Below, piece by piece: positions 3,018-32,929 of a stretch of 32,929 nucleotides of DNA. The position numbers were made by a program, and so were the translations under genes. The notes beneath the pieces are model-generated. The model searched no databases, had not been told where the DNA came from, and was given only the letters and a program-made list of their open reading frames with translations. How positions within the stretch are numbered: position 1 is the first letter of the stretch; the number at the start of each line of letters is the position of its first letter. Origin of the DNA: Chamaesiphon sp. GL140_3_metabinner_50 (GTDB lineage Bacteria > Cyanobacteriota > Cyanobacteriia > Cyanobacteriales > Chamaesiphonaceae); assembly GCF_025361915.1 (NCBI RefSeq), contig NZ_JANYJC010000251.1, forward strand, positions 1 to 32,929. Reading direction: 5' to 3'.

Positions 3018-4160
3018 CTAGCGAATATATTCTTTAAGAATACTATTGCGATTGGGGTGACGGAGTTTGCGGAGAGCTTTAGCTTCAATTTGGCGAATGC
3101 GTTCGCGGGTGACATTAAAAATCTGACCGATTTCTTCTAATGTTTTCATGCGTCCATCATCTAAACCGTAACGCAAGCGTAAAACATCGCGTTCGCGCGG
3201 GCTTAATGTATCGAGAACGCCTTCTAAATCTTCTCGTAATAAGCTCTTGGATACTTGATCTTCTGGCATTTCGCCGTCGGCTTCGATAAAGTCGCCGAGC
3301 CGGGAATCTTCTTCTTTCCCAATTGGTGTTTCTAGCGAGATCGGTAACTGGGCAGATTTAGCAATAAATCGCAGTTTTTCGATCGTCATTTCCATCCGGG
3401 TGGCAATTTCTTCTTCTGTGGGTTTGCGTCCCATTTCTTGAGAGAGTAATTTAGTGGTTTTTTTAATCCGCGAAATTGTCTCGTATAAGTGGACGGGAAG
3501 CCGAATCGTCCGAGATTGATCCGCAATGGCGCGGGTGATTGCTTGGCGAATCCACCAAGTTGCATAAGTCGAGAATTTATAACCTTTTTCGTGGTCGAAT
3601 TTTTCAGCGGCGCGGATTAAACCCAAGCTGCCTTCTTGAATTAAATCTTGAAAAGAAAGACCGCGATTCATGTATTTTTTAGCGATCGAAACTACCAGTC
3701 GCAGGTTCGATTGTACCATCTTATCTTTAGCCCGACGACCTAAAAATAACCGATGGCGAAACTGATTGAGTGGCATCGCTGCAACCTCGGCCCACTCCCG
3801 GTCGTGGGGTTCGCGATCTAAGTCATTGAGCAGCTTTTCGCGCATCCGCTCCAATTCTAATAAATCGGCAATTTTCCGAGCTAGTTCGATTTCTTCATCG
3901 GCGCGGAGCAAGCGAATGCGACCGATTTCTTGTAAATATAATCGAATCGAATCTTCTGTAAACTGTTTTTTCTTGGTTTGAACGCGGCGGCGGGAGGCTT
4001 TCACCTTCCCCAGCTTACCATCCTCGTCTTCGACATCAGATTCACCGTCAGCGTCAGCAGTAAAATCATCGGCATCAACATCGTCGTCGAGCAGTAGCTC
4101 TAACTCGGTGTCAGTGTCTTTCGTCGTTATGGTTGCGAGCATGTCTTTAGTCTGGGTCAT
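3018..4160 (-). CDS. sigA: Principal RNA polymerase sigma factor SigA (group 1 sigma-70)
   Basis: A 380-residue housekeeping sigma factor. An acidic N-terminal stretch (residues about 20-50, rich in Asp/Glu) precedes region 1.2 ([16 protein letters not shown]), region 2 with [34 protein letters not shown] and [19 protein letters not shown] (core binding and -10 recognition), region 3, and region 4 with [10 protein letters not shown] and [20 protein letters not shown] (-35 recognition helix-turn-helix). The length and the C-terminal ending fit cyanobacterial SigA rather than the shorter group 2 sigmas. It directs transcription of essential genes, consistent with the TTGACA/TATAAT-like promoters seen elsewhere in the window. 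The ATG at 4160 gives the full N-terminus. Confidence 0.95.
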
Positions 4161-4966
4161 GTGTGGGTCCTCTTACTCCTTATTTTTGTAACTAATGAAC
4201 TAATATAAATCCGCTTTTTCCGCAGGAAACCGTGGTGATGTTTATCGATATCGAACGCTCTAGTCAGCTCCCAGATCTCGATGAGTACCTGCAAGCTGAC
4301 GAGTTGTTGCGAACTACTTAAACTGAAATGTTAGTCGCTAACAGTAGGTAATTAATACTCGGCGATCGAGAGAATATCCTCAATCGAGGAAAGCCCTTTT
4401 GATTGTAGCTCTTATTAAAATTTCTGCCAGTTTGAATTGTTAATTAACATATCAATTTATCCGGCCTGCACTCTCATAACTACATATACTACTTGTCGCC
4501 GAGATTACCTACGGTAGGCTACGCCAACGAGTTCGATCCGATCGAGGTAGATATCGTTCGCATAGCGTCGCTCCGATCTCGATTTGGATCGGCACTAATG
4601 CCATTTCGATTCACGATCGAGTGGTGTAGACTCATTTTATAAATAGATGGTTTTTGTTACAAAGAGTTAACAAATGGGTCAGATCGCTGCGTTGACATCA
4701 TCTTATTTGTCAAGGTAGAAGCATTCCGCGAGCCGAAAGAGCAGTGTCCGAAATAATTTGACCCTCTCAATCCACAGTCTAACTGTTTAGTTTCGCTTTG
4801 CCCACCCAATTTCACTCAACAATCGTGCGTTAATTTGCTGAAATTAGCTAATTCGAGCTAATATTCGGGCTGATACTCATAGTTATAACATTGTCTGCCC
4901 AGCATTGGAGAATCGACTCAAACCCGATATACTAGCCACTAGCATCCTCACTTCGCACTAATATAT
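4161..4966. other. Long divergent intergenic region between sigA and purH
   Basis: About 800 bases without a convincing gene. It must contain the sigA promoter(s) on the left and the purH promoter at 4905-4933. A dispersed repeat (TACCTACGGTAGGCTACGCC) lies at 4506-4525. An inverted repeat TTGACA-N10-TGTCAA lies at 4692-4713 and could be an operator or a chance pairing. A 27-codon frame starts at 4238; I do not call it a gene. Confidence 0.6.
4905..4933 (+). promoter_or_regulatory. Predicted purH promoter
   Basis: TTGGAG (4905-4910) and TATACT (4928-4933) are separated by exactly 17 bases, 33 bases upstream of the purH ATG. This fits a sigma-70 promoter for the group 1 sigma factor, with a short leader of roughly 25-30 bases. 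Confidence 0.65.
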
Positions 4967-6499
4967 ATGACTCGTTTAGCACTCTTGAGTGTATCTGACA
5001 AAACCGGATTAATTGACTTTGCCCGTCAATTGGTCGAAAAATTCGACTTTGAGATTGTCAGTAGTGGCGGCACCGCTCAAGCCTTGAAGGCGGAAGGGAT
5101 TCCGGTGATGAAGGTGGCTGAATATACAGGTGCGCCAGAAATATTGGGCGGACGGGTGAAGACTTTGCACCCAAAAATACATGGGGGAATTCTGGCGCGG
5201 CGAGACTTGCCCGAACATATCGCCGATCTAGAACAACATCAAATTCGCCCTTTCGATCTAGTAGTCGTTAATTTATATCCCTTCGCTGCGACGATTAGCA
5301 AGCCTGGAGTGAGTTTAGCAGAGGCGATCGAGCAAATCGATATCGGTGGCCCTGCCATGTTGCGGGCTGCGGCGAAGAATTTCGCACATTTAACAGTATT
5401 ATCCAATCCCGATCGCTACGCTGATTATCTCACCGAACTGACTAAAAATAACGTTCACGCCTCAATCGAGTTCCGGCAAGCCAGAGCCTTAGAAACTTTC
5501 CAACATACCGCTGCTTACGATACGGCGATCGCGGGTTATCTGGCTGCCCAAGCAGGCGAAAATCAAAATTATCAAATTTCTGCCCAACCGCTCCAATCGC
5601 TCCGCTACGGCGAAAATCCCCAGCAACCAGCCGCCTGGTATCAGACGGGCGCAGTCCCCACAGGTTGGACGACTGCCAAAATCTTGCAGGGTAAAGAACT
5701 CAGCTACAATAACCTCGTCGATTTAGAAGCCGCACGGCGGATTATTGCCGAGTTTGGTGATACTCCCGCAGCCACGATTATCAAGCATAATAATCCCTGC
5801 GGGACGGCTTTAGGCGATACTTTACTCTCCGCATACAATCGAGCCTACAATGCCGACTCTACCTCCGCCTTCGGTGGGATCGTCGCCGTCAATTGCTCCC
5901 TCGATGCCGATACCGCGCGCTCGATGAGTCAAACCTTCCTCGAATGTATCGTCGCGCCAGAATGTACCCCTGAAGCTGCTGAAATCTTCGCCAATAAAAA
6001 GAATCTGCGGATATTAACGCTAGCAGATTTGACAACGGGGACGAAAGATAATGTCAAAGTCATCGCTGGCGGACTATTAGTTCAAACCGCCGACGAAGCG
6101 ATCGAAACTACCGATAACTGGCAAGTAGTCACTACCAAACAACCCACCGCCGCCGAACTTCAAGAATTATTATTCGCCTGGAAAGTCTGCAAACATGTTA
6201 AATCTAACGCGATCGTCGTCACTAAAAATCGCGCTACCATTGGCGTAGGTGCCGGACAAATGAACCGCGTCGGCTCGGCTAAAATTGCCCTCGAACAGGC
6301 TGGCACCAACGCCCAAGGTGCAATCCTCGCCAGCGATGGCTTCTTCCCCTTCGATGATTCTGTCAAAACCGCCGCCGCCGCCGGAATTACTGCGATCGTT
6401 CAACCTGGTGGTAGTATGCGCGATAACGATTCGATCGCGGCTGCTAATGAATTAGGCATCGTAATGGTGTTTACAGGTGTCCGACATTTCTTGCATTAG
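4967..6499 (+). CDS. purH: Bifunctional AICAR transformylase / IMP cyclohydrolase PurH
   Basis: A 510-residue enzyme performing the last two steps of de novo IMP synthesis in the cytoplasm: formylation of AICAR with 10-formyl-THF, then ring closure to IMP. The N-terminal cyclohydrolase (MGS-like) domain shows LLSVSDKTGL, SSGGTA, GGRVKTLHPKIHGGIL and FDLVVVNLYPF. The transformylase domain shows SLRYGENPQQ, GKELSYNN, IIKHNNPCG near residue 275 (the Lys-His pair of the active site), STSAFGGIVA and VKSNAIVV, and it ends in GSMRDND and FTGVRHF. The length is normal for the family. A promoter with near-consensus boxes sits just upstream, and the gene appears monocistronic. Confidence 0.97.
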   Translation: MTRLALLSVSDKTGLIDFARQLVEKFDFEIVSSGGTAQALKAEGIPVMKVAEYTGAPEILGGRVKTLHPKIHGGILARRDLPEHIADLEQHQIRPFDLVVVNLYPFAATISKPGVSLAEAIEQIDIGGPAMLRAAAKNFAHLTVLSNPDRYADYLTELTKNNVHASIEFRQARALETFQHTAAYDTAIAGYLAAQAGENQNYQISAQPLQSLRYGENPQQPAAWYQTGAVPTGWTTAKILQGKELSYNNLVDLEAARRIIAEFGDTPAATIIKHNNPCGTALGDTLLSAYNRAYNADSTSAFGGIVAVNCSLDADTARSMSQTFLECIVAPECTPEAAEIFANKKNLRILTLADLTTGTKDNVKVIAGGLLVQTADEAIETTDNWQVVTTKQPTAAELQELLFAWKVCKHVKSNAIVVTKNRATIGVGAGQMNRVGSAKIALEQAGTNAQGAILASDGFFPFDDSVKTAAAAGITAIVQPGGSMRDNDSIAAANELGIVMVFTGVRHFLH

Positions 6500-6887
6500 C
6501 TAAGGTGTACGCATGAGTTTGGCTGGCAATGATGCTTTGACAAAGGTTTTGGCAATTCGGGTTTCACCTAGTAGGGGCAATGTCTTGTCGGTGCTTGGTT
6601 GTTTTTCACGGTCGGGAAACCCGACCGAAAATCAATCCGCTTTTTTATATCTCCTGTCGGAGAGGCTCCGCCAACGGGGGGAACCCTAGACATAAAACCG
6701 CCGCTTCATGAATTGCCCCTACTAGGTGAAACCCTCAGCCCATACATGTATCGATCGGCAATCCTGCCCTCAAACTGGTATTAATTTTATCCTCTGGTGA
6801 AAGAGACAGCAGCGAGATTTTACTTACAATACAAATGCAGTGTAATTTGTCAATTATCTGCGTTCTAAAAAGTGAGCTAAATCGATC
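6500..6887. other. Gene-free spacer holding a 176-bp TIR element
   Basis: No gene is supported. The spacer is dominated by the element at 6559-6734. The remaining sequence, 6735-6887, directly precedes the first TPR-protease gene and should hold its promoter, which I cannot define. Confidence 0.6.
6559..6734. mobile_element. MITE-like element with perfect 23-bp terminal inverted repeats
   Basis: The segment 6559-6581 is the exact reverse complement of 6712-6734 (23 of 23 bases, beginning GGGTTTCACCTAGTAGGG). The 176-bp unit holds an internal perfect 8-bp hairpin (CGGTCGGG/CCCGACCG, 6609-6627) and codes for nothing recognisable. The base pair TC flanks both ends and could be a target duplication. 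The form is that of a non-autonomous transposable element; the mobilising transposase is not in the window. Confidence 0.75.
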
Positions 6888-8184
6888 GTGAAAATTCCCG
6901 CCTTCCTCGGTACTACCATCGCCCTCGTCTGCTTCGCAGATATCGCCATCGCCAGCACTCCAGCCGAAATCTCCACCATTGCCCAAGCCGTTACCGTCGA
7001 AATTACGCTTTCAAAATCGATCGGTTCGGGCATAATTATCCACAAGCAAGGCAATCTCTACACCCTCATCACCAATCGCCACGTCGTTTGTGGCGAGCAA
7101 CGTTCTTGTTCTAAACCTTCAGATACCGAAACTTTCCAACTGAAATTTGGGAATGGTAGCTCCGTCAAAGTCCCCGCCACCGCCGTCAAGATTGCCAGCA
7201 AAGATCTCGATCTGGCAACGATTCAATTTAGGAGTAATAGTAACCTCCCGATCGCCCAAATCGCCCCACTAGGTAGCCTCAAAGTAGGCGATCGCGTCTA
7301 CACATCAGGATATCCCGCCGAACCGCGTGGGTTCTCATTTAACAGCGGAGGTGCGATCGCGGTAGTCAACAAACGCCTGACTGAAGACAGAGGCGGTTAT
7401 ACAGTAGCCTATGATGCCCAAACCCAACCAGGCATGAGCGGTGGCGGCGTATTCGATAACAATGGGCGGCTCGTCGCTATCCACGGGCAAGGCGAGCGAT
7501 TTCGGGAGAATACAAATCTATCAGATGTATCCGCATCAGGAACGATCGTTAGCCGTGAAGAAGTAGGAAGCAAAATCGGCTACAACCGAGGAATTCCAGT
7601 GCGCTGGGTAGTGCAGAACTTAGCTACTCTGGGGATAAGGTTGGGTGAGCCAGAGCCGTTCGTACCCGCACCATCATCAGCGAACGATCTCGCCGATGAA
7701 TACTTCATCGCGGGATTTAATAAATTTGTCGAACCAGGTACCGATGTTCGAGCTGGCAAACAGCAAGCCACCGAGTCATTTACTCAAGCGATTCGTCGCA
7801 ATCCGCGCTATGCGATCGCTTACTACGTGCGGGCTTTGACATACCAGCAGCTACAGGAATATCGGCTAGCTTTAGCCGACTGGAACCAAGCCATCGCCCT
7901 CAATCCGAAATATGTAAATGCCTACAACAATCGCGGAGTTCTGAAGAAAGAGAAACTCAACGATCCTCAAGGTGCGCTCGCCGACTATAACCAAGCCATC
8001 GCCCTCAATCCGAAATCTGCCAAATTCTTACGGAGCTAGAGGACAATTGAAATACACCAAATTGAACGATCGAGCTGGTGGAATTGCCGACATGCAAACA
8101 GCCGCTCGGTTAGCTAAAGCACAGGGCAATACCCAGGTTTTAAATTTTGCCCTGCAAGCCCTGCAATCTTGGGGTGTAAAGTAA
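6888..8184 (+). pseudogene. Exported trypsin-like protease with TPR repeats, copy 1, frameshifted near 8020
   Basis: The GTG start matches the start of copy 2. A signal peptide (about residues 1-23, ending AIAS) precedes a trypsin-fold domain with His in TNRHVV, Asp in KDLDLATIQF and Ser in QPGMSGGGVF, then TPR repeats. The first frame stops at 8039 after ALNPKSAKFLRS. Aligned with copy 2, copy 1 has one extra base within about 8015-8024. Removing it restores NSYGARG and a tail ending QSWGVK at 8184. Only the last 50 or so residues, the final TPR, are lost, so the 383-residue product may still be an active protease. Copy 1 also has one more TPR than copy 2. A sequencing error is the alternative explanation. 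Confidence 0.85.
7884..8016 (+). repeat. 28-bp perfect direct repeat flanking the extra TPR unit
   Basis: The 28 bases at 7884-7911 recur exactly at 7989-8016 (105-base offset, 35 codons) and encode NQAIALNPK. They bound the TPR unit that copy 2 lacks, consistent with gain or loss of a repeat unit by recombination. The frameshift lies immediately after the second copy. Confidence 0.8.
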
Positions 8185-8197
8185 GGGATGATTTCCC

Positions 8198-8340
8198 AGA
8201 GGGTGTCTGAAAAGCCTAGATCTTAATCCCCCCAACCCCCTTAAAAAGGGGGAGCAAGAGTCTTAGTCCCCCTTTTTAAGGGGGATTTAGGGGGATTTAC
8301 CCACTTGAAACGAAGCAATTAGACTTTTCAGACATCCTCT
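8198..8340. mobile_element. MITE-like element, 143 bp, 17-bp terminal inverted repeats
   Basis: The left end AGAGGGTGTCTGAAAAG (8198-8214) and right end CTTTTCAGACATCCTCT (8324-8340) pair at 16 of 17 positions. The interior carries long C-run/G-run complementary segments (around 8229-8252 and 8266-8300) able to fold into stems. The terminal GGATGTCTGAA motif is shared with the elements at 849-1152 and 20627-20795, which defines a repeat family. No coding capacity is present. It fills most of the 409-base spacer between the two TPR-protease genes; the rest (8341-8593) shows nothing recognisable. Confidence 0.7.
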
Positions 8341-8593
8341 CAGAGGAGAGGTTATGCGATAATTTTTCAAGCGTCGAGCAAATATAAATGCCGACATTCC
8401 ATATTAACGCAAGTTGATAGTTACAATCGTGGCTGAGAGTTGCGAGCATTTTAAATGCGATCGATCGCACCGGATCTCGCTATTTGATGTCTGGCATGAC
8501 GATCGCAAAAATCGACAATTACCTTTTGGTACAGACAAGATCGGGTAGGATAGCTTGTAAAATTATTCCGTCCGATCTTTTAGATACCTAATC

Positions 8594-9793
8594 GTGAAAA
8601 TTCCCGTCTTCCTCGGTACTACTATCGCCCTAGTCTGTGTCGTCGATGCCGCGATCGCCAGCACTCCCGCCGAAATCTCCACCATTGCCCAAGCCGTTAC
8701 CGTCGAGATTAATCTCACTCAGGCACAATCGATCGGTTCGGGGGTTATCGTCCACAAGCAAGGTGATGTCTATACTCTGCTCACCAATCGTCACGTTGTT
8801 TGCCCTGGGAAGCCTGCTTGCGCCACAGCGTTATCTACAGAAACCTTCCAATTAAAATTTGGTAACGGTAGCTCCCTCAAAGTCCCCGCTACCGCCGTCA
8901 AGATTTTGACTAAGGATCTCGATCTGGCGGCGATTCAGTTTAGGAGTAGTAGCAATCTCCAAATTGCCAAATTTGCCCCACCAGGTAGCCTCAAGGTAGG
9001 AGATCGCGTCTACACATCAGGCTATCCCCTCGAACCACGCGGTTATTCGTTTAATACTGGAAGAGCGATCTCGGTAGTAAACAAACGCCTGACTGGAGAC
9101 AGAGGCGGTTATACAGTAGTCTATGATGCCCAGACGCAACCAGGCATGAGTGGCGGCGGTGTATTCGACACCAATGGGCGCATCGTCGCCATCCACGGAC
9201 AAGGCGAGAGATTTCGGGAAAATACCGAGTTATCCGATGTCTCAGCGTCAGGGGAGATCTCCTCTGGCAATGAAGTAGGTAGCAAAATCGGCTATAACCG
9301 AGGAATTCCAGTGCGCTGGGTAGTTCGGGGCTTGGCAGATCGGGGGATAAGACTGGGAGATCGAGATCCTGTCACCCCCGCAACAGCAGCAATCGATAAC
9401 ACTGCTGACGAATATTTTATTGCTGGATTTAATAAGTTTGTAGAACCGGGCAGCAATATTCGAGCGGGCAAACAGCAAGCGATTGAGGCATTTACTCAAG
9501 CCATTCGCCTCAATCCGCGCTATGAGTATGCCTATTTCCTGCGGGCTATTACATACTATCAGCTCAAAGAATATCGGCTCAGTCTAGCTGACTATAACCG
9601 CGCCATCGCCCTCAATCCGAACTTGGCAAATTCCTATGGAGCTAGAGGAATTTTGAAATATACCAAATTGAACGATCGAGCTGGGGGAATTGCCGATATG
9701 CAGACAGCCGCTCGTTTAGCCAAGGCACAGGGCAATAATCAAGTTTTAAATCTTGCCCTGCGATTTCTGCAATCTTGGGGTGTAAAGGAGTGA
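8594..9793 (+). CDS. Exported trypsin-like protease with TPR repeats, copy 2 (intact)
   Basis: A 399-residue protein starting with GTG, nearly identical at its N-terminus to copy 1. It has a signal peptide (residues about 1-23), a trypsin-like domain with His in LTNRHVVC, Asp in KDLDLAAIQF and Ser in QPGMSGGGVFDTNG, and C-terminal tetratricopeptide repeats (PRYEYAYFLRAITYYQ, NLANSYGARGILKYTK) ending QSWGVKE. The TPRs probably recruit a partner or substrate. Location outside the cytoplasmic membrane is inferred from the signal peptide. It arose by tandem duplication with the frameshifted copy upstream. The substrate is unknown. Confidence 0.88.
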   Translation: MKIPVFLGTTIALVCVVDAAIASTPAEISTIAQAVTVEINLTQAQSIGSGVIVHKQGDVYTLLTNRHVVCPGKPACATALSTETFQLKFGNGSSLKVPATAVKILTKDLDLAAIQFRSSSNLQIAKFAPPGSLKVGDRVYTSGYPLEPRGYSFNTGRAISVVNKRLTGDRGGYTVVYDAQTQPGMSGGGVFDTNGRIVAIHGQGERFRENTELSDVSASGEISSGNEVGSKIGYNRGIPVRWVVRGLADRGIRLGDRDPVTPATAAIDNTADEYFIAGFNKFVEPGSNIRAGKQQAIEAFTQAIRLNPRYEYAYFLRAITYYQLKEYRLSLADYNRAIALNPNLANSYGARGILKYTKLNDRAGGIADMQTAARLAKAQGNNQVLNLALRFLQSWGVKE

Positions 9794-10240
9794 TGTGGGT
9801 TTTTAGTGGATGTTTCAAGGCGATCTCGCGATTAATTTTAGATATTAGATCTCCACTATCTGTAGATCTAATCGATCGATGATTATTGGTGGAGCGGGAC
9901 AGGTTTCAGCTTGAGGTTGATTCGATCGCTTGAATTTATCTCTAAATCTGCCCGTGCGGGTCGATCGTCACAACCGATCGCCAGATCCACATTAAAATAT
10001 TGGTACTAGCATATTTCACTCCTGTCAGGAGCGGCGGTTTCGATCGTGTCGATCGCTAACATCTTCAACAACTAACAGATCGATGCCTTGCAGCCCACAC
10101 ACCCAATCTCCCAAATTTTCTAGGGTTTCTTGGCATTATTTATGTCCTAACTAGTGCTTCGATCGCGATCCTTTTGCAGCATCTCTATTCGCGATCGATA
10201 ACCAAAAACCCGCCACTAACCCCTATCCCCCTAACTTGCC
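9794..10240. other. Gene-free spacer upstream of nadK
   Basis: I see no gene or RNA here. There are many CGATCG tetramer/hexamer sites and a small palindrome CTCCTG-T-CAGGAG near 10019-10031. The promoter of nadK must lie in the right part but cannot be pointed to with confidence. Confidence 0.5.
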
Positions 10241-11179
10241 GTGCAACTCAAAAACGTCATCATCGTCCATAAAGCCGGAGATCGTACTAGTAAAGCCCTC
10301 GCTGAAAAAGCTGCCAAACAACTCGAACAAATGGGTTGTGATGTGATGATGGGGCCGAGTGGAGCTAAAGATAATCCCTATCCCGTCTTTTTAGCCTCTA
10401 GCAGCAAGCAAATCGATCTGGCGATCGTTTTGGGGGGCGATGGTACCGCACTCACCGCAGCAAGGCATCTATCCGCCGATGGCATCCCAATTTTAGCCAT
10501 CAATGCGGGGGGGCATTTGGGCTTTCTGACCGAGCCGTTAGAACTTTTTAATATCGACGCATTAATCGAAGGTGAGAGCGTCTGGGATCGACTCATCCAC
10601 GATCGATATGCAGTCGAACGAAGGATGATGCTCCAGGCGCATATCTACGATGGAGACGATCGCACCGCGCCCCCTGAGAGCGAAAAATTCCTCGCACTCA
10701 ATGATATGTGTATTAAGCCCGCCGCTGCCGATCGAATGATTACTTCAATTCTAGAAATGGAAATCGATGGCGAAATTGTCGATCAATACCAAGGCGATGG
10801 TTTACTCGTTTCCACCCCCACCGGATCTACTTGTTATAACGTCTCTGCTAATGGCCCGATCGTCCATTCTGGCATGGCGACAATGACGATCGCCCCAATT
10901 TGCCCGTTGAGTCTTTCCAGTCGCCCGATCGTCATTCCAGCGGGTTCTACTGTCAGCATTTGGCCTTTAGGCGACTACGAACTCAATACCAAGCTGTGGA
11001 CGGATGGCGTACTGGGTACCTCGATTTGGCCGGGGCAAAGAGTCGATGTCCAAATGGCCGACTGTCAAGCCAAATTTATCATTCTGCGCGAGAATTACTC
11101 CTATTACCAAACTCTCCGCGAAAAGCTCCTGTGGGCAGGTTCTCGCATCCGCTACGACCACCATCATACTAGGAATTAG
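10241..11179 (+). CDS. nadK: NAD kinase
   Basis: A 312-residue cytoplasmic enzyme that phosphorylates NAD to NADP, the electron acceptor of photosynthesis. Visible motifs are the nucleotide-binding GGDGT (residues 65-69, followed by ALTAARHL), NAGGHLGFLTEP, and TPTGSTCYNVSANGPIVHS in the C-terminal domain. The start is GTG (MQLKNVIIVHKAG), chosen because the N-terminus then matches the usual cyanobacterial form; an in-frame ATG further in would remove the first strand. Cyanobacteria generally have two NAD kinases and I cannot tell which one this is from the sequence alone. The stop codon TAG lies in the first unit of a heptamer tandem repeat. Confidence 0.95.
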   Translation: MQLKNVIIVHKAGDRTSKALAEKAAKQLEQMGCDVMMGPSGAKDNPYPVFLASSSKQIDLAIVLGGDGTALTAARHLSADGIPILAINAGGHLGFLTEPLELFNIDALIEGESVWDRLIHDRYAVERRMMLQAHIYDGDDRTAPPESEKFLALNDMCIKPAAADRMITSILEMEIDGEIVDQYQGDGLLVSTPTGSTCYNVSANGPIVHSGMATMTIAPICPLSLSSRPIVIPAGSTVSIWPLGDYELNTKLWTDGVLGTSIWPGQRVDVQMADCQAKFIILRENYSYYQTLREKLLWAGSRIRYDHHHTRN

Positions 11180-11224
11180 GTGTTAGGTGTTAGGTGTTAG
11201 GTGTTAGGTGTTAGGTGTTAGGTG
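11176..11224. repeat. Heptanucleotide tandem repeat (TTAGGTG x7)
   Basis: Seven perfect copies of TTAGGTG run from 11176 to 11224. The first copy supplies the TAG stop of nadK. This is a short tandemly repeated repetitive (STRR) sequence of the kind common in cyanobacteria; related TAGGTGT/TAGGTAT runs occur at 11319-11337, 27908-27950 and 31073-31115. Confidence 0.9.
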
Positions 11225-11367
11225 TTACTCCCTTCCCACTCAAGAAATAGACATCTGTCATTCACTATCCACTATCCACTACCATACTAGATGTCTAATT
11301 TGTCACTGGGAAGAGAGTAGGTGTTAGGTATTAGGTAAGTTTTTAAGAGCGGATATTCGCCTCAATC

Positions 11368-12351
11368 CTAAAGCATGTCGATACCTACTTTCAGAGCGGG
11401 ATTATTCTCCCATCGATCTCCCACATGGGCATAAATCGCCGTAGTGCGCGGATCGGCATGACCGAGTAAATCTTGTACCTGCCTTAATGTTGCTCCATTC
11501 CGCAGAGCTAATGTCCCCGCCGTATGCCGTAAACTATGTGCCGAGAGCGTCCGCCCCTCCATATATTTAAGATTAGTCGCTTGAAGATACTTATCCACGA
11601 TCTGGCGAATGCCCCGCCGCGATAACCGTTCCCCGCGCCCATAATTACTCAGATTGATCGATAGCGGACTATCCACCATACAATCAAACCCCGCCCCCCG
11701 CAGTGCTGTCAAATACTCCTCTAATACCTGTGCTAACTGGGGAGTCAACGGCACCACTCGCGTGTGTCGCTTACTACTGACTTTCAACCCTACCCGCGTT
11801 CCTTGCCGAACCACATCGCCAATATTCAGCCGATGCATCTCGACACTCCGCGTCCCTTCGAGAGTCATCACGCCCAGCAATAACTTATCCCGCAGGGTTT
11901 TCAACGGCAGGGAAGCACTAATCGACTTGAGTAGGATGGTAGCTTCGTCCTGTTCGAGATAAGTAATCCTGGCTGCCGGATCGATCGATACTGTGGGTGG
12001 TTTAACGCCCCAAGCCGGATTACCCCCCATCAATCCATATTCTACCGCCGCATCATACAACCGACTCACTGCTGTCAATTTCACCGCGATCGTTTTGGGC
12101 TTATACCCTCGCTGTGTCAAATGCCACCGATAGATCTTAATCGTCTCCCGCGTCGCCTCACGCGGATCGATCTGACTTTCTCGACACCACTCTAAATACT
12201 GTTTGACTTGCGTCCAGTAAGTGACGATCGTATCGCCACTGGCACCACCGTTGGCAACATCAAATTGCAAAAAGTTGGTGAAAACGCCAATCAATGCGTC
12301 GCAGTCAATTTCGACAACTGCTGCTGTCTGCTGCTCGGTTGGATCGACCAT
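11368..12351 (-). CDS. Tyrosine recombinase / integrase, copy A
   Basis: A site-specific recombinase of about 327 residues. An N-terminal SAM-like core-binding domain (TYWTQVKQYLEWCRES, TAVSRLYDAAVEYGLM) precedes the catalytic domain with Arg in LEGTRSVEMH, Lys in VSSKRHTRVVPL, HSLRHTAGT, and the His and Tyr of LGHADPRTTAIYAHV. All residues needed for strand exchange are present. I prefer the ATG at 12351 (MVDPTEQQ) over one 33 codons upstream, because the extra residues look non-native. It points away from the accessory genes at 13-21 kb and may bound that island. Whether it is a XerC/D-like chromosomal enzyme or an island integrase is undetermined. Confidence 0.88.
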   Translation of the reverse strand: MVDPTEQQTAAVVEIDCDALIGVFTNFLQFDVANGGASGDTIVTYWTQVKQYLEWCRESQIDPREATRETIKIYRWHLTQRGYKPKTIAVKLTAVSRLYDAAVEYGLMGGNPAWGVKPPTVSIDPAARITYLEQDEATILLKSISASLPLKTLRDKLLLGVMTLEGTRSVEMHRLNIGDVVRQGTRVGLKVSSKRHTRVVPLTPQLAQVLEEYLTALRGAGFDCMVDSPLSINLSNYGRGERLSRRGIRQIVDKYLQATNLKYMEGRTLSAHSLRHTAGTLALRNGATLRQVQDLLGHADPRTTAIYAHVGDRWENNPALKVGIDML

Positions 12352-12451
12352 TTGTCCAAAAAGTATGTGTCTCTTCCATTGTATGAAATATCGAAAGGTT
12401 AATGTCACGTACTGCAACAAATAGGGCAAGTTCGTACGTTCCCCCGCCACT

Positions 12452-15462: not shown

Positions 15463-15834
15463 ATGGAACAAGGCGAGGATAATCCTGAAATCCTTTTACG
15501 CCCGTTGGTATGGATGGGTGACTCTCTTGGCAACATTAGATCGTTTCCGCCAGAAGTACGAACGGCGGTAGGATATGCTCTACAATTGGTGCAGGCTGGG
15601 GAAACGCCAATGAATGCCAAGCCATTTAAAGGGGTGGCTAGTGGTGTATATGAGATCGTTAAACGGTATGATACCGATACTTATCGCGCTGTTTATGCCG
15701 TGAAGATTGGCGAAAAAATTTACATATTACACGCATTTCAAAAAAAATCGAAGCAAAGCATAAAAACCCCGCAGTCAGATATTGACTTAATCAAACAACG
15801 TTATAAAGATGCCATAGAGAGGGCACAGCAATGA
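15463..15834 (+). CDS. HigB/Gp49-like toxin of a type II toxin-antitoxin pair
   Basis: A 123-residue protein with the RelE/HigB (phage Gp49-like) pattern: LVWMGDSLGNIRSFPPEVRT, AVGYALQLVQ, AKPFKGVASGVYEIVKRYDT, TYRAVYAVKIGEKIYILHAF, followed by KKSKQ and a C-terminal helix. Members of this family are ribosome-associated mRNA endonucleases that inhibit translation. The gene overlaps the next by the ATGA quadruplet, so toxin and antitoxin are translationally coupled, with the toxin first as in higBA systems. The assignment rests on the fold pattern and the gene pair; activity is not shown by the sequence. Confidence 0.85.
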   Translation: MEQGEDNPEILLRPLVWMGDSLGNIRSFPPEVRTAVGYALQLVQAGETPMNAKPFKGVASGVYEIVKRYDTDTYRAVYAVKIGEKIYILHAFQKKSKQSIKTPQSDIDLIKQRYKDAIERAQQ

Positions 15835-16157
15835 ATACAGAGCCTAAATTCATCGATGGCAGTGGTAATATATTTGTCGATCTAGAATTAGATGATGCCG
15901 ACGAACTATTTACTAGAGGTAAAATTGGTATCCAAGTTATCCGTCTATTGAATAGACGTAATTTAAAACAGCGAGAGATTGGAGAACTTTTAGGCATATC
16001 TCAGCCAGAAGTATCTCATTTAATGAATGGTGAATTCCAACGTTTTAGTGATGGTAAATTAATTAATTTTCTCAAGCGACTAGATGCCAAGGTTACACTG
16101 CACATCCAAGATCGACATCTCACAAATGAATCGAGTGAGACGCTAGTATTGTTATAG
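15831..16157 (+). CDS. XRE-family antitoxin (HigA-like)
   Basis: A 108-residue protein with a central helix-turn-helix: IQVIRLLNRRNLKQREIGEL, LGISQPEVSHLMNGEFQRFS, then LINFLKRLDAKVTLHI. This is the XRE-type antitoxin usually encoded after Gp49-like toxins. It would bind and neutralise the toxin and repress the shared promoter upstream of 15463. It overlaps the toxin stop by 4 bases. The N-terminal 30 residues are acidic and may be the toxin-binding part, although in some HigA proteins this is C-terminal. Confidence 0.85.
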   Translation: MNTEPKFIDGSGNIFVDLELDDADELFTRGKIGIQVIRLLNRRNLKQREIGELLGISQPEVSHLMNGEFQRFSDGKLINFLKRLDAKVTLHIQDRHLTNESSETLVLL

Positions 16158-16400: not shown

Positions 16401-17033
16401 TTATCGATTTATAATTTGTGGATTGGTAGGTTTGGGAATAGACACTGCTTTGAGAAGTGATTGATAATCTTTGTAACCCATCATGGGAGCTAAATTCATC
16501 GCGATAATTGTGGCTCTCTCGGTTTTGCCATTTTCAAGAGCCTCTGCTAATTTCTCGGATAGAGCTAGTTTGATTTCATGTTCGCTGCGGTATTTTTGCA
16601 TTTCTGCATTCAGGCGATTTACTTCTCCTATCCCTCCATCCGTAGATCCCAGTGGAATGGTAACACCTACTACTGCTTCTAAATTAGTTCCAGATCCGTA
16701 GGTAGCTGGTGAAGCTCTGGTAACAGCGAAGAAACAGCCGCCATTACAACTAGGCGGCGTGAGGGTACTCGCGTAACCATTTACTTGAATTCCGCCTGAT
16801 TGTTGATTGAATTGGGTTACTGAATTGTTTAGTGTTGATGGTGTCGAACTGCTAGGTATTATTGTTCCTCCAGTATTTGTTTGAGGAGTGGAGTTATCTA
16901 TTTGGGTGGGGATAGTAGTGGGGGTAAATGTATCAACAGCACCGCCACCAGCTAAAGCTGGATGAGCTATCACAGCAAAAGCCAGGAATCCAGATATGGC
17001 TCCGATTACTGCTATTTTATTTGACGATTGCAT
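16401..17033 (-). CDS. Unrecognised exported protein
   Basis: A 210-residue protein with a clear signal peptide (MQSSNKIAVIGAISGFLAFA then VIAHPALA, cleavage near residue 28). The mature part begins with a Thr/Ser/Asn/Gln-rich low-complexity stretch (about residues 30-85), then a cysteine pair in PSCNGGCFFAV, a glycine-rich stretch (VVGVTIPLGS) and a C-terminal helical half with EVNRLNAEMQKYRSEHEIKL and LAEALENGKTERATIIAMNL. The hydrophobic strand followed by a helical tail resembles surface or outer-membrane-associated cyanobacterial proteins, but I cannot name it. It lies 69 bases downstream of the lectin/peptidase locus on the same strand and may share its secretion context. Confidence 0.6.
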   Translation of the reverse strand: MQSSNKIAVIGAISGFLAFAVIAHPALAGGGAVDTFTPTTIPTQIDNSTPQTNTGGTIIPSSSTPSTLNNSVTQFNQQSGGIQVNGYASTLTPPSCNGGCFFAVTRASPATYGSGTNLEAVVGVTIPLGSTDGGIGEVNRLNAEMQKYRSEHEIKLALSEKLAEALENGKTERATIIAMNLAPMMGYKDYQSLLKAVSIPKPTNPQIINR

Positions 17034-17102
17034 GATGGAACAGTTTAGGAAGGTTAGTATAGGAAGAAGAAAGCGATCGGATCGATCGCCCAGTTAGTTG
17101 TG

Positions 17103-18146
17103 TTATTGGCGAGCAACACTGATGTGTAAACCGCCATTATAGGAGAAGAAGACTGCTAATTGAGTGCGATTCATCTCTACAACCCCACCTCGATACAGAG
17201 GATCGCCAACGAGATAGTTACCACTAGATGTTTTACCCAAAATAGTATTGATATGATTGGTATCTCCCGCTCCTGTTAAACTATAGCTAGGAAACTGATT
17301 CCGCCAGTTAGTTCCATAGTAACCAAAAGCGATAACTGCTTTACCATCTGCAAGATCTCGATCTATCTGTGCCAAAGTATTAGAATCATAACTGTAAGTG
17401 TTAGAGCGAAGTCCAACACTTGACAACCCAGTTACTACTTGTAGGTTATTAGTTTGAATATTATTATTCATAGGTGCATTCATTAACTGACGGGCGCGGT
17501 TGATGCTAGTTTGGACTGAAGTATTAGATAATTCTTTGCCAAATAACTTAAAAATCATTGCGACACTTGTTGGCCCACAGTTTTCACTACTCAATGGCCC
17601 ATCAGGATTCCACTGATTGTTATAGTATTGTGTTTTAAAATAATTGTTAGCTTGACTTACACTACTGAGTATAATATTATTAGATTGTGTTGGTGCTGGA
17701 GGGCTGCAAGTTGTAGCGGTATTAGTTGCCCAAAGAGCTTGATTTTGGGCATTGTACATGACGAAGTTGCTATTATCTTCAAGAGTGATTCGTGTTGCAC
17801 TTCGACGCTCAGTATTAGAAGCCCAAACAGCATTATTGCTGGTATTGTAAATGACTAAATTACCATCACTCTGGAAAATAGTTTGTTTGACATTACGCCC
17901 ATAAGTTGCTGTGTTCCATAGAGCCTGTCCATTCGATTGGCGATAAATAACCAAATTTCCATCAGCTTGAGCATTTAAACTAAAGCACTGATTATTAGAT
18001 TTAATGCTTGACCCTAGTTGCATTATCGTATTATTGATAAGGGAATTAGCAGGGCGGGTAGGTGTTGGTGCTGGTGCTGGAGTGCTATTGCCACAAGATG
18101 TAACTGTATTTGTTGCCCAAATAGGTTGATTTTGGGAATTGTACAT
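17103..18146 (-). CDS. Lectin plus C39-like peptidase fragment (3' part of the broken locus)
   Basis: This 347-residue frame can be translated from the ATG at 18146, but that ATG lies inside a lectin repeat and there is no signal peptide, so secretion is unlikely as it stands. It contains the end of one lectin repeat, a Pro/Thr-rich linker (PAPAPTPTRPAN), a complete bulb-type lectin domain (about residues 45-150) and a C-terminal peptidase_C39-like domain with Cys in NCGPTSVAM, His in DTNHINTI and Asp in LVGDPL. Such domains cut peptides; here the lectin would target the enzyme to mannose-type glycans on cell surfaces. Expression as a separate product is doubtful. Confidence 0.55.
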   Translation of the reverse strand: MYNSQNQPIWATNTVTSCGNSTPAPAPTPTRPANSLINNTIMQLGSSIKSNNQCFSLNAQADGNLVIYRQSNGQALWNTATYGRNVKQTIFQSDGNLVIYNTSNNAVWASNTERRSATRITLEDNSNFVMYNAQNQALWATNTATTCSPPAPTQSNNIILSSVSQANNYFKTQYYNNQWNPDGPLSSENCGPTSVAMIFKLFGKELSNTSVQTSINRARQLMNAPMNNNIQTNNLQVVTGLSSVGLRSNTYSYDSNTLAQIDRDLADGKAVIAFGYYGTNWRNQFPSYSLTGAGDTNHINTILGKTSSGNYLVGDPLYRGGVVEMNRTQLAVFFSYNGGLHISVARQ

Positions 18147-19018
18147 TACTACATTGCCATCATCTTGAACGATGAGCTGCGTTGCACGTCTTGTTGAGTA
18201 GGATATGCAAAATTTGACTCAAGAATAGTAAGGGTTAGATTATTACCATTTTGTTGAACACTGCGTACTAGAACTACATGACCAAAGGGATTACTTGAAG
18301 TAGCAGAGAAAGACATAATAGACCCAGGGATTGGAAGACGTGGATCGCTTAAAGGCAAAAATTCATTAGGAAACTGACTGCCTACCGAACCAGCCGTATT
18401 CCGGCCATCTCCTATCCATAATGCACCCTTTCCATAATGATCTTGCAAGTAACGAGCAATTAGGGTGACGCATTCACCGTCCAAGTTGCGATTGTCTTTT
18501 CTCCAAACCCGTTTAGTAAGCCAATCATTGGCAAATGCATTTACCTTTCTTTGACTGTCACGCTGAGAAGGTACATTACAAGGAATGCCATTTGTATTGG
18601 TTGCCCAAATAGGTCGGTTTTGGGAGCTGTAGATGACAACGTTTCCATCATCTTGAACGATAAGCTGTGTTCCGCCTCGACGATCGGTATTAGAAGCCCA
18701 AACAGGCTGATTGCTGGTATTATAAATAACTAGGTTACCATCAGTTTGAAAAATAGTCTGTTTGACATTGCGTCCATAAGTTGCTGTATTCCATAAAGCT
18801 TGTCCATTTGATTGCCTGTAAAGCACCAAATTTCCATCGGCTTGAGCATTTAAACTGAAGCACTGATTATTAGATTTAACACTCGATCCTGGGGACAGTA
18901 TAGTAGGCGCGGGAACGGCTTCTGCTTATTCCGCTGTAATCAAGATCGCGCTGATGCTCGATAGTGCAACAATAGTCGCTACAAATTTGCCAAGCTTTAA
19001 TTTGCTTAAATTAGACAT
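17103..19018 (-). pseudogene. Broken lectin-CHAP-lectin-C39 peptidase locus
   Basis: Reading from the ATG at 19018, a signal peptide (MSNLSKLKLGKFVATIVALS) is interrupted by an in-frame TAA at 18928-18926. Beyond it the same frame continues with a bulb-type lectin domain (repeats of ADGNLVLYRQSNGQALWNT, DGNLVIYNTSNQPVWASNT, DGNVVIYSSQNRPIWATNT). A CHAP amidase domain follows, with Cys in DGECVTLIARYL, His in FGHVVLV and Glu in LESNF. At about 18187-18197 the CHAP frame runs into the last third of a second lectin domain in another frame (RRATQLIVQDDGNVV), so the CHAP frame stops at 18149. The second frame holds another full lectin domain and a C39-like cysteine peptidase (ENCGPTSVAM, TNHINTILG, GDPLYRGG) ending at 17103. 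I infer two adjacent lectin-enzyme genes fused by deletion and then, or before that, hit by a nonsense mutation. Confidence 0.75.
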
Positions 19019-19254
19019 TTTGGATGGTACTCTAAATCTTAGTTTGGAAAAGGGGCGGATTGATTGCTTGAATCGTTTCCTGACTACAAGCATATTCAGG
19101 CTCAAGTCGATCGTCGATAGGAAAAAATAGGCAGTTACAAACCTGTGATCTGAAAACGTGACATCCAATATTTGGTTGGATCCGGAACAAAAGTAATGGG
19201 TTTAATTACAAAAAAGTAGAATAAAATAGGAGCAATGTAGTCTACCGCCTTACT

Positions 19255-20622
19255 ATGGATATTGCCGAAGCCCTAAAAATAGCTGACAATTTGGTCTTCG
19301 CATCGCGCAATAAGCATCTCAACGACTTGGAACGATCGATTATTGAAGGTGTCTGTCAGGGCAAAAAATATTCACAGATAGCCAAAGATAACTATTGTGA
19401 GCAATCTCACGTTAATGATGTTGCAGCCAGTTTATGGAAGGCGATCTCTGAAGCTGTAGGCGAACAAGTAAAGAAGGCAAATTTCAAATCTACGATCGAA
19501 CGGTATAGATCTGAAAATAGTGCATCTGTTGGACAAGTATTATTTAACGTTTGTCCGCAGATCACACTAAATAATAATCAATATCACAGCCATCAACAGA
19601 CAGATCGATCGGACACCCCGCAGTACTTAGAAACCATTCCCGATCTCATCTCTATCTACGATCGATCTCAAGAACTAGACTCGCTCAAAAACTGGATACT
19701 CACAGAGAAATGTCGCTCCGTCGTCATCTCCGGTACTGCTGGTATTGGTAAAACTGCCATAGCTAGACAATTAGTAGAAGATATTAAAGATGAATTTGAT
19801 GAGATCGTCTGGCAGAGTTTAGGTTGTCAGCGTTCTGTGGTGGAATTTATCGATCGCAATCTCATCGCGTCACTCAAGATCGAGGCTTTACCTAAACCAC
19901 CATTAGATCTAGAAGCTAGGTTATCTCTACTACTCGAACATTTCCGATCGCATCGCTGCTTGATAGTATTAGACGATCTCGATCGACTCTTTAGCAGCGG
20001 TGAATTAGCAGGTAATTATACAGAAGAAGATCGAGAGTATCGATATTTATTTAGGCGAATTTGGGAAACAAATCATCAAAGCTGTGTAATTCTGCTGAGT
20101 CGGGAGGAGCCGAGTAAAATGGCTGGATCGGTTAGTAATAATAGCTCGATTCATTCTTTACCACTTGGCGGATTGGGCGATGGTGGTAGAGAAATATTTA
20201 GAGCGAAGGGTTTGAGTGATGAGGACAGGTGGGATTACGCCATCGAGTATTTAGGTGGAAATTCAGCCTATCTAAAATCGGTAGCGATCGCGATTAACAA
20301 GTTATTTGGTGGTAAAGTTGGCGAATTTTGTAAGTATGAAGAGTTATTCATGACTGAAGAGATCGGATCGCTGCTGAATCATCAACTCGCTCGATTATCA
20401 CCAGCGGAACGAGAAGTAATTCGCTCTTTAGCTAGTGAGGCTATCCCAATAAATATATCTAGCATTATCGAGTCACTAAATATGTCCCCCGCAGATGTAG
20501 GGAATGCGATCGTCTCATTGGGTAGACGGGAATTAGTCGAGCGAACTGAAACGGAAGATGGTGCAATTTTTAGTTTGCGATCGATCGTTATGCTCCAAGC
20601 AAAACTGCTGGTTCTAGATTAA
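19255..20622 (+). CDS. NB-ARC-type STAND ATPase with N-terminal HTH-like domain
   Basis: A 455-residue protein. Residues 1-85 (LNDLERSIIEGVCQGKKYSQ then IAKDNYCEQSHVNDVAASLW) match the helical DNA-binding-like domain that cyanobacteria place before NB-ARC modules. The NTPase follows with Walker A SGTAGIGKTA (about 160-169), Walker B CLIVLDDLDRLF (about 234-245), a sensor-like VILLSREEPSK, the region around LGGLGDGGREIF, and a winged-helix-like end (LSPAEREVIRSLASEAIPIN). The usual WD40 or TPR sensor repeats of STAND proteins are absent, as is a recognisable effector domain, so it is either a compact switch or a truncated one. STAND ATPases serve in signalling and anti-phage defence; the role here is not determined. 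A MITE-like repeat begins 4 bases after its stop. Confidence 0.8.
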   Translation: MDIAEALKIADNLVFASRNKHLNDLERSIIEGVCQGKKYSQIAKDNYCEQSHVNDVAASLWKAISEAVGEQVKKANFKSTIERYRSENSASVGQVLFNVCPQITLNNNQYHSHQQTDRSDTPQYLETIPDLISIYDRSQELDSLKNWILTEKCRSVVISGTAGIGKTAIARQLVEDIKDEFDEIVWQSLGCQRSVVEFIDRNLIASLKIEALPKPPLDLEARLSLLLEHFRSHRCLIVLDDLDRLFSSGELAGNYTEEDREYRYLFRRIWETNHQSCVILLSREEPSKMAGSVSNNSSIHSLPLGGLGDGGREIFRAKGLSDEDRWDYAIEYLGGNSAYLKSVAIAINKLFGGKVGEFCKYEELFMTEEIGSLLNHQLARLSPAEREVIRSLASEAIPINISSIIESLNMSPADVGNAIVSLGRRELVERTETEDGAIFSLRSIVMLQAKLLVLD

Positions 20623-20881: not shown

Positions 20882-21841
20882 TTGACATTACTCTCCACCA
20901 TCGCCGCATCACCCCTATCGCTGCAAGATATCGCCCAGCGGGACTTGCTTCAGGAGCTAATTGCCGATCGCAGGTCGCCCAATACGCGGCGGACTTATAC
21001 TAAGGCATTGGTAGATTTTTTCATGCAGGTGGCCCATGCTGCGCCGACACCCGCCTTAGTCGGGGAATTTTTGGCACTCGATCGCTATCAGGCGATGACA
21101 TTAGTATTGAGATATCGGCGGATATTAACCGATAAAGGGTTGGCTCCTTCGACGATTAATACCCGACTGGCGGCGATTAAAAGTTTGGTGGGTTACGCGC
21201 GCAAGGTGGGGCAATGTCACTACGATCTGGCGGATGTGGAGGGGGTAAGAGTAGAGACTTATCGGGATACTTCGGGGGTGAATCCGACTGAGTATCAGTT
21301 GACGATCGGAATGTGCGATCGGGATACTGTTAAAGGGGTGCGGGATTATGCGATCCTGCGATTATTGTGGGATAACGCGCTGCGGCGGGCGGAATTGTGT
21401 CAGGCTAATGTCAAAGATTTCGATCCGCAGGGGAGTAAGTTGTGGATTATTGGGAAGGGGAAGGTACAGCGGGAGTCGATCGATCTCAGCCGTCAGTCGG
21501 TACAGGCGATTCAGGCGTGGTTGGAAGTGCGGGGGAAATGTAAGGCTACCGAGCCGTTATTTTGTACGCTCGATCGAGCGACGAAGGGGCATCGGTTGAG
21601 TGGGAATGCGATCTATAATCTCGTCAGAGAGACGAGTGCAGCAGCGGGGATATATAAGGTGATGAGTCCGCACCGCGTCCGTCACAGTGCGATTACGGCG
21701 GCTTTGGATGCAACGAATGGGGATACGCGCCGAGTGCAGAAGTTAAGCCGTCATGCGGATCTGAATACTTTGACTCGGTACGATGATAACAGGCGGCATC
21801 ATCAGGGTGAAGTTACGAAAATTTTGGCAGAATTAGTGTAG
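20882..21841 (+). CDS. Tyrosine recombinase / integrase, copy B
   Basis: A 319-residue recombinase, with a TTG start chosen because the frame is otherwise only entered later. The core-binding domain (SPNTRRTYTKALVDFFMQVA, APSTINTRLAAIKSLVGYAR) precedes the catalytic domain with Arg in LLWDNALRRAELCQ, Lys in IIGKGKVQRESIDL, His-x-x-Arg in PHRVRHSAIT, His in LSRHADLNTL and the nucleophile Tyr in TRYDDN. It is clearly distinct from copy A. It lies at the right edge of the accessory stretch, directly after the NB-ARC gene and a repeat element, and could be the integrase of this island. The coding sequence is unusually rich in GGG/CGG codons compared with its neighbours, hinting at a separate origin. 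Confidence 0.87.
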   Translation: MTLLSTIAASPLSLQDIAQRDLLQELIADRRSPNTRRTYTKALVDFFMQVAHAAPTPALVGEFLALDRYQAMTLVLRYRRILTDKGLAPSTINTRLAAIKSLVGYARKVGQCHYDLADVEGVRVETYRDTSGVNPTEYQLTIGMCDRDTVKGVRDYAILRLLWDNALRRAELCQANVKDFDPQGSKLWIIGKGKVQRESIDLSRQSVQAIQAWLEVRGKCKATEPLFCTLDRATKGHRLSGNAIYNLVRETSAAAGIYKVMSPHRVRHSAITAALDATNGDTRRVQKLSRHADLNTLTRYDDNRRHHQGEVTKILAELV

Positions 21842-22024: not shown

Positions 22025-22052
22025 CTATTCACTATTCACTATTCACTATTCA
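22025..22052. repeat. Heptanucleotide tandem repeat (CTATTCA x4)
   Basis: Four perfect copies of CTATTCA are followed by a diverged CTATTCC. It lies just past the stop of the TspO-like gene and is of the same class as the other heptamer runs in this window. Confidence 0.85.
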
Positions 22053-22066
22053 CTATTCCCTATCCC

Positions 22067-23863: not shown

Positions 23864-25279
23864 ATGAGGATGCTGCAAAAATCGGATGGACTGCTAGGGT
23901 GGAATACTTGGCGAATGGGGCTAATTTTGGGAGCGATGGCGTTGCTCGGTACTGGGGTTCCCGTCTATATCAATCGACAGCAAGAACAAACAGCCGCAGA
24001 TAACAAAGCCCAACAGACAGCCGTAGTCGCGCCTACAACCGTGACAGCATTGGGAAAATTGGCACCCAAAGGGGAAGTCATTAAGCTATCTGCGCCGACA
24101 TCTAACGAAGGCGTAAAAATCGAGAAACTGTTGGTGGCGGAAGGGGCGACAGTTAAAGCCGGACAGTTAATCGCGATTTTGGATAGTCAGGGACGCTTGC
24201 AAGCGGCGGTAAATGAAGCTAAAGCCAAAGTCAGCGTCGCCGAGGCAAGTCTGGTAAAAGTCAAAGCTGGAGCCAAGCAGGGCGAAATTAACGCTCAAAA
24301 AGCGACAATTGGCAAACTCAAAGCAGAACGGGAAACGGGCATAGAAGCCCAGCAAGCGACAATTGCCAGAGTAATGACGGAAACAGCCACTCAAATCGAA
24401 GCCCAGCAAGCGACAGTTGCCAGAGTAGTGGCGGAAACCACCACCCAAATCGAAGCCCAGACAGGAGCCATTGCCGAAGCGCAAGCTGGACTGGTTAACG
24501 CTCAAGCTGAGGATAACCGTTATGCGACTCTGGCTCTACAAGGAGCGGTTTCGGCATCTAGCGGCGATAGTAAGCGGTTGATTTTACAAACAGCACAGCA
24601 GAGAGTAAATCAGGCACAAGCAAATTTAAAACGCATTACATCTTCGGGGCAGCAACAATTAGCCGAAGCGCAAGCTAATTTACGCCGGATTCAAACATCG
24701 GGACAACAACAGATTGTTGAAGCAAAAGCTAATTTGCGAAAGCTCGAAACATCGACACAACAGCAGATTAAAGAAAGTCAATTTACGCTCGATAAAATTG
24801 CTGAAGTACGTCCGGTCGATGTCATGTCTGCCGAAGTAGATATCCAAAGTGCGATTGCATCTTTAAAACGTGCTGAAGAAAATCTCGCTCAAGCGAGTAT
24901 TAAGTCGCCCCAAGATGGTCAGATCTTGGCAGTTTTTGCCCGTCCGGGGGAAGTAGTTGGCACTAATGGCATCGCCGATCTCGGTCAAACCACTCAAATG
25001 TATGGAGTGGTAGAAGTTTACCAAAGTGATGTCAATAAAATTCGAGTCGGACAGAAAGTAAAGATCGCCAGTAATTCTCTACCTGGAGAACTAAAAGGAA
25101 CTGTAGAAAAAGTTGGCATTCAAGTTAAGCGTCAAAATGTAATTAATGCCGACCCGACTAGTAATATTGACGATCGCATCATTGAAGTTCATGCGGTCTT
25201 AGACGCGGCATCCAGTCAAAAGGCTGCTAAGTTTACTAACTTACAAATTAAAGCAGTCATCGATATTGATGCTCGGTAA
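23864..25279 (+). CDS. devB: DevB-family membrane fusion protein of an ABC exporter
   Basis: A 471-residue periplasmic adaptor (HlyD type) linking an inner-membrane ABC pump to an outer-membrane channel. An N-terminal membrane helix (residues about 15-35, MGLILGAMALLGTGVPVYI) precedes a lipoyl half-motif (GEVIKLSAPTSNEGVKIEKL then EGATVKAGQLIAILDSQG), a long Ala/Gln-rich coiled coil, the second lipoyl half (ASIKSPQDGQILAVFARPGE) and a beta-barrel domain. The coiled coil contains two sets of 18-residue tandem repeats. In heterocyst-formers DevBCA exports envelope glycolipids; homologs elsewhere export other lipids or stress compounds, so the substrate here is unknown. First gene of the TetR-controlled operon. 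Confidence 0.92.
   Translation: MRMLQKSDGLLGWNTWRMGLILGAMALLGTGVPVYINRQQEQTAADNKAQQTAVVAPTTVTALGKLAPKGEVIKLSAPTSNEGVKIEKLLVAEGATVKAGQLIAILDSQGRLQAAVNEAKAKVSVAEASLVKVKAGAKQGEINAQKATIGKLKAERETGIEAQQATIARVMTETATQIEAQQATVARVVAETTTQIEAQTGAIAEAQAGLVNAQAEDNRYATLALQGAVSASSGDSKRLILQTAQQRVNQAQANLKRITSSGQQQLAEAQANLRRIQTSGQQQIVEAKANLRKLETSTQQQIKESQFTLDKIAEVRPVDVMSAEVDIQSAIASLKRAEENLAQASIKSPQDGQILAVFARPGEVVGTNGIADLGQTTQMYGVVEVYQSDVNKIRVGQKVKIASNSLPGELKGTVEKVGIQVKRQNVINADPTSNIDDRIIEVHAVLDAASSQKAAKFTNLQIKAVIDIDAR
24341..24460 (+). repeat. 54-bp tandem repeat inside devB
   Basis: Units begin at 24341, 24395 and 24449 (offset exactly 54 bases). They encode EAQQATIARVMTETATQ, EAQQATVARVVAETTTQ and a partial third starting EAQTGAIAEAQ. 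The 18-residue period fits the helical hairpin of the adaptor. Confidence 0.85.
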
Positions 25280-31057: not shown

Positions 31058-31072
31058 GGAGATGGGAGATGG

Positions 31073-31115
31073 GTATTAGGCTTTAGGTATTAGGCTTTAG
31101 GTATTAGGTATTAGG
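31073..31115. repeat. Heptamer-type repeats after the TolC gene
   Basis: Alternating TTAGGCT and TTAGGTA units form a degenerate run. A mirrored-strand run (CCTAACACCTAAAACCTAATACC) continues near 31163-31187, so the two can pair into a hairpin. Confidence 0.75.
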
Positions 31116-31263
31116 CAAAGCAGTCGATAATTCGATCCTGACTCATATCCTCTCTTCAACTCCTAACACCTAAAACCTAATACCTAATCTACCCCCTTGG
31201 CAAAACTGTCAAATATCTTAATAATCCTTAATAGGGCATAAATTATTTTTAGGGGTATATGAG

Positions 31264-32741: not shown

Positions 32742-32892
32742 AGTTCTCCTAAAATTAAGTTTTTTGTAAAAACTTTAACAGTTTATTTAATTTTAACAGG
32801 GGTGAGGAACTAATTCGCTAAGTTCGGAGATGGGAGTTGGGAGATGGGGGGACGGGGGGACGGGGGGATTTTTAATCCAAATTACTCCTTAC

Positions 32893-32929
32893 TCCCCGCT
32901 CCCCGCTCCCCGCTCCCCGCTCCCCGCTC
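32893..32929. repeat. Heptanucleotide tandem repeat (TCCCCGC x5) at the window edge
   Basis: Five perfect copies of TCCCCGC run into the right edge, so the total length is unknown. A GGGGGAC-type run (32846-32868) lies shortly before it. Confidence 0.85.

Follow-up and report, generated by a model that had tools for sequence, protein, structure and literature searches.

A probably recently inactivated locus for secreted, lectin-targeted cell-wall hydrolases in a Chamaesiphon genome

A locus on the minus strand of a Chamaesiphon sp. contig is probably the remnant of a recently inactivated pair of genes (or of a single large gene) for secreted, lectin-targeted cell-wall hydrolases. The window, i.e. 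the whole stretch of DNA that was analysed, comprises 32,929 nucleotides. In the draft assembly the locus displays lectin and hydrolase domains with their sugar motifs and catalytic residues, two lesions, and the marks of past purifying selection (Table 1). The copy is dead or nearly so.

The Pfam search recognised the B_lectin family (PF01453) once in each frame, with 36.9 and 35.9 bits against a curated cut-off of 32.4 (E values of 5.5e-9 and 1.1e-8). The CHAP domain (PF05257) scored 38.1 bits for a cut-off of 26 (E = 2.2e-9), and Peptidase_C39_2 (PF13529) 30.3 bits for a cut-off of 24 (E = 7e-7). As all the scores lie above the curated cut-offs, the lectin, CHAP and C39-like identities given in an earlier reading of this DNA (the original prediction) were upheld. 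It had also claimed that both enzymes keep their catalytic residues, which was confirmed by translation and alignments. In the case of CHAP, the translation and an alignment with a relative showed the Cys at 18470-18472, the His at 18278-18280 and the Glu/Asn at 18218-18220 and 18212-18214. For the C39-like domain, Gln 17628-17630, Cys 17577-17579, His 17253-17255 and Asp 17202-17204 were found to be kept in an alignment of 30 sequences. Of the seven QxDxNxVxY sugar motifs, six are intact and one, in lectin 2, is degenerate; the third of the domain that carries this degenerate motif showed an elevated replacement divergence.

The AlphaFold model of the C39-like domain (pLDDT 95) has a papain-like fold. 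Its best solved match was the pseudomurein endoisopeptidase PeiR (Z 17.0, rmsd 2.7-2.9 over 150-153 residues), followed by the leader peptidases ComA and PCAT1 (Z 15-16) and then by phytochelatin synthase and a CDI toxin. With PeiR and ComA matching equally well, the substrate cannot be deduced from the fold alone. The model of lectin 1 with CHAP, which was built without an alignment, reached a pLDDT of 41 and was unusable.

Table 1. Features of the lectin-hydrolase locus and of its neighbourhood (positions in the window)
Feature	Positions	Strand	Evidence
Signal-peptide-like N-terminus, 30 codons, start ATG	18929..19018	-	translation
In-frame TAA stop separating the signal peptide from lectin 1	18926..18928	-	translation
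B-lectin domain 1 (98 aa) with three QxDxNxVxY motifs, all intact	18593..18886	-	Pfam PF01453 5.5e-9
Sugar motifs of lectin 1	18844, 18748, 18655	-	
CHAP (peptidoglycan amidase/endopeptidase type), end cut by junction	18191..18577	-	Pfam PF05257 2.2e-9
Junction of CHAP end and last third of lectin in other frame	18190..18191	-	translation and repeat search
B-lectin last third, one intact sugar motif (18167)	18105..18190	-	85% aa identity to the equivalent third of lectin 1
Full-length B-lectin domain 2; two of its motifs intact, the other degenerate (LEDNSNFVMY)	17718..18011	-	
C39-like (Peptidase_C39_2) papain-like cysteine peptidase, stop codon included	17103..17675	-	Pfam PF13529 7e-7
Outward-pointing tyrosine integrase genes on either side of ~10 kb of accessory genes, the lectin locus among them	11368-12450, 20882-21841		
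Gp49-like toxin and HTH_37 antitoxin pair, adjoining the locus	15463-16157		
Protein of unknown family, signal-peptide-like start	16401-17033		
Divergent STAND-type ATPase gene	19255-20622		

Three-frame translation of 17000-19060 revealed that reading from the ATG at 19018 gives MSNLSKLKLGKFVATIVALSSISAILITAE, meets the TAA and then continues in the same frame with AEAVPAPTILSPGSSVKSN. The predicted separation of the signal peptide from the first lectin by an in-frame stop was thus confirmed at 18926-18928. The frame of lectin 1 and CHAP stays open until a TAG at 18151-18149. The lectin-C39 frame, which is -1 relative to that of CHAP, has a TGA at 18221-18219 and is open from 18218 to its stop at 17105-17103, with a proline-rich linker between the partial lectin and the full lectin 2. 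According to the codon scores, the coding potential moves at the junction from the first of these frames to the second. The passage of CHAP into a lectin of another frame had been predicted at 18187-18197, and the repeat search placed the edge of the lectin homology (family D2) at 18190.

The two full lectin copies share 81% DNA identity and differ at 17, 6 and 32 first, second and third codon positions, respectively (dN/dS 0.15). Between the partial lectin and the matching third of lectin 1, the corresponding differences were 0, 3 and 10. Such a ratio reflects purifying selection and suggests that both frames were translated until recently. As this selection covered most of their history, the lesions would be recent. 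Decay, as originally proposed, is therefore upheld, with a stop and a frame-changing junction lying in a sequence whose lectins diverged under purifying selection. Gene conversion between the lectin copies was considered and found unsupported, given that the synonymous divergence is equal along the domain (pS of 0.483 and 0.479).

The junction is best read as a deletion, which is well supported by the sequence: some 70 lectin residues are absent, and the remainder was under purifying selection. The original prediction had described a fusion junction. Its deletion component stood; as for two genes joined or one gene shortened, no intact homologue in either arrangement was found in the genomes searched. 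Two lesions were observed in the 1.9 kb of the locus, against no evident one in the other open reading frames of the window, 22.7 kb in all (P ~0.006 assuming an even fall, a rough value since a gene broken elsewhere would be missed for want of a long open frame).

Apparent lesions could also arise from assembly or base-calling faults, the true locus being intact. The genome is a metagenome-type draft of 394 contigs and 3.86 Mb, in which the window is contig C83, and the locus itself holds repeats of 81% identity. However, the genes of the window that were sampled, among them those for the RpoD-type sigma factor, purH and NAD kinase, are full length, and the loss of ~200 nt or more at the junction is not a base-call error. 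Repeat collapse would not create this junction either, because the sequence 3' of 18190 belongs to CHAP rather than to a repeat. Such faults are considered improbable, and we infer that the lesions are real mutations.

The junction might instead be functional. A programmed -1 frameshift at A_AAT_TTT (18209-18215) would link the CHAP and lectin-C39 frames into a single working protein, and this heptamer stands in the correct register within the 67-nt overlap of both open frames. Nevertheless, a slippery heptamer of this type is expected at the junction by chance with P ~0.12, the RNA structure downstream of it is weak (z -1.43), and the one-third lectin at the junction is without the rest of its fold. 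Furthermore, the TAA after the signal peptide would block translation even with the frameshift, and no homologue with the CHAP/one-third-lectin arrangement was found. A working frameshift is considered very unlikely. It is also highly unlikely that the C39 frame is a separate live gene restarting at ATG 18146, just past the CHAP stop (TAGTAATG). Stop and ATG are indeed 2 nt apart, but TAATG occurs in the window as frequently as by chance, this ATG is homologous to a Met/Ile codon within the lectin motif (VVMYN, VIYSS), and the product would be without a signal peptide.

Under the preferred reading of recently inactivated hydrolases, the intact protein would have been exported by its signal peptide. 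Mannose- or rhamnose-like glycans of a cell surface or sheath may have been the ligands of its beta-prism-II B-lectins, and the cysteine hydrolases tethered to these lectins, CHAP and C39-like, would have cut peptide bonds in peptidoglycan or surface proteins. In the present copy, the nonsense codon would halt translation directly past the signal peptide, and the deletion would have taken the CHAP end together with the initial two thirds of the lectin that followed, shifting the frame. With a nonsense codon and a frame-changing deletion, neither enzyme could be made in exported form. We infer the ancestral form because an intact orthologue was not found.

In the genus, the B-lectin, the CHAP part and the C39 part were absent from the other eight of nine genomes. 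A first scan of the genome contigs with a single protein as query gave no match. One relative of CHAP was detected among 386 cyanobacterial genomes (locus L145), in an intact frame and with 35-38% identity. Its domain order is Amidase_3, B-lectin-like, LGFP and CHAP, the latter ending the frame. Proteins joining B-lectin-like and M23 domains were found in other cyanobacteria (L014, L024, L009 and L012). For the C39 family, 71 loci were found; its nearest members are from Microcoleus, Leptolyngbya and other cyanobacteria, followed by Myxococcales. None of the 71 has an intact QxDxNx[VIL]xY lectin motif, so the combination of lectin and C39 was seen only here, within what was searched. The joining of bulb-type lectins to a C39-type enzyme is the one feature of the locus that looks unusual. 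Among the myxobacterial C39 proteins (L046-L061), which are possibly predation factors, at least one (L046) carries PG_binding_1.

The NAD kinase of the window shows 88-91% identity to those of eight same-genus genomes, which identifies the contig as cyanobacterial. The surroundings of the locus look like an accessory stretch. The STAND-type ATPase has 76-80% identical copies in two genomes of the genus, without the lectin locus alongside; some copies of this gene contain stops (TGA in G002, TAA in G004:C81). Candidate attachment-site repeats flanking the 11.3-21.9 kb stretch were rejected: the 15-mer CTATCCACTATCCAC common to both ends is a short tandem repeat of a heptanucleotide that is present in several places, and no tRNA was found at these ends. 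Such repeats are mostly intergenic (11176-11227, 22025-22063, 31072-31117 and 32892-32929), one of them at the contig end. A phage origin was discarded, the lectin-C39 part being unmatched in phages and C39 unmatched in viral contigs; the lectin part gave weak matches in four Pseudomonas phages. A plasmid origin was also discarded, since plasmids matched the lectin part only. Elsewhere in the window, a 54-bp tandem repeat of 2.2-2.4 copies (24344-24475) lies within a HlyD-like gene (23864-25279). The gene order also differs from that of same-genus genomes, where purH is followed by NAD kinase and then by the sigma factor gene. In the window (3018-11230) the sigma gene adjoins purH in inverted orientation, and NAD kinase is separated from purH by two trypsin-TPR genes (6888-8039 and 8594-9793).

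The role of the intact proteins may be viewed in two ways. They could have served in remodelling of the producer's own wall or sheath, or in attachment, rather than in antagonism. This is a real possibility, somewhat short of even, and it is compatible with the other explanations. It agrees with the retention of lectin-M23 proteins in several cyanobacteria, and neither Pfam nor the neighbouring genes revealed a recognised immunity gene adjoining the locus. On the other hand, lectin-like bacteriocins require no cognate immunity factor (PMC6465234), and both the patchy presence (one of nine genus genomes) and the setting beside integrases and a toxin-antitoxin pair better fit an accessory conflict gene. 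A weapon is plausible by likeness to lectin-like bacteriocins and albusin B. In its full form this suggestion is tentative and rather unlikely: the ancestor might have been a weapon that an attached cyanobacterium secreted and that lectins guided, with tandem B-lectins carrying two different cysteine-hydrolase warheads (CHAP and C39), a combination of which no description was found. With this locus, C39-type peptidases join M23, Amidase_3 and CHAP as enzymes that cyanobacteria couple to bulb-type lectins. This points to a modular set of lectin-wall-hydrolases, with competition or attachment as candidate roles, and the state of the copy limits its weight.

The inactivated locus resembles other cyanobacterial B-lectin hydrolases (L145, L014, L024, L009 and L012) in having a lectin beside a wall hydrolase, and in L145 the lectin precedes the related CHAP. 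Unlike it, these proteins are intact, larger and free of C39; their B-lectin matches are below the Pfam cut-off, yet QxDxNxVxY motifs are present. The C39_2 proteins secreted by cyanobacteria and Myxococcales (L039-L061) belong to the same family, with 34-46% identity and the same catalytic residues. Their modules are S8, FG-GAP, PA14, LGFP or PG_binding_1, and LysM-like stretches were seen by eye. LlpA and putidacin L1 share the B-lectins, which are in tandem in the C39 part of this locus, and the intact QxDxNxVxY motifs, whereas LlpA has no enzyme domain. The LlpA/putidacin profile NF033557 gave partial matches of 79.1 and 89.8 bits, far under its cut-off of 275 bits, which places the locus outside that family. 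Albusin B, a bacteriocin of Ruminococcus albus that combines a B-lectin with a peptidase M15 (PMC6240691), is alike in the joining of a B-lectin to a peptidase domain. It differs in that the peptidase is M15 rather than CHAP or C39, the producer is Gram-positive and the protein is functional.
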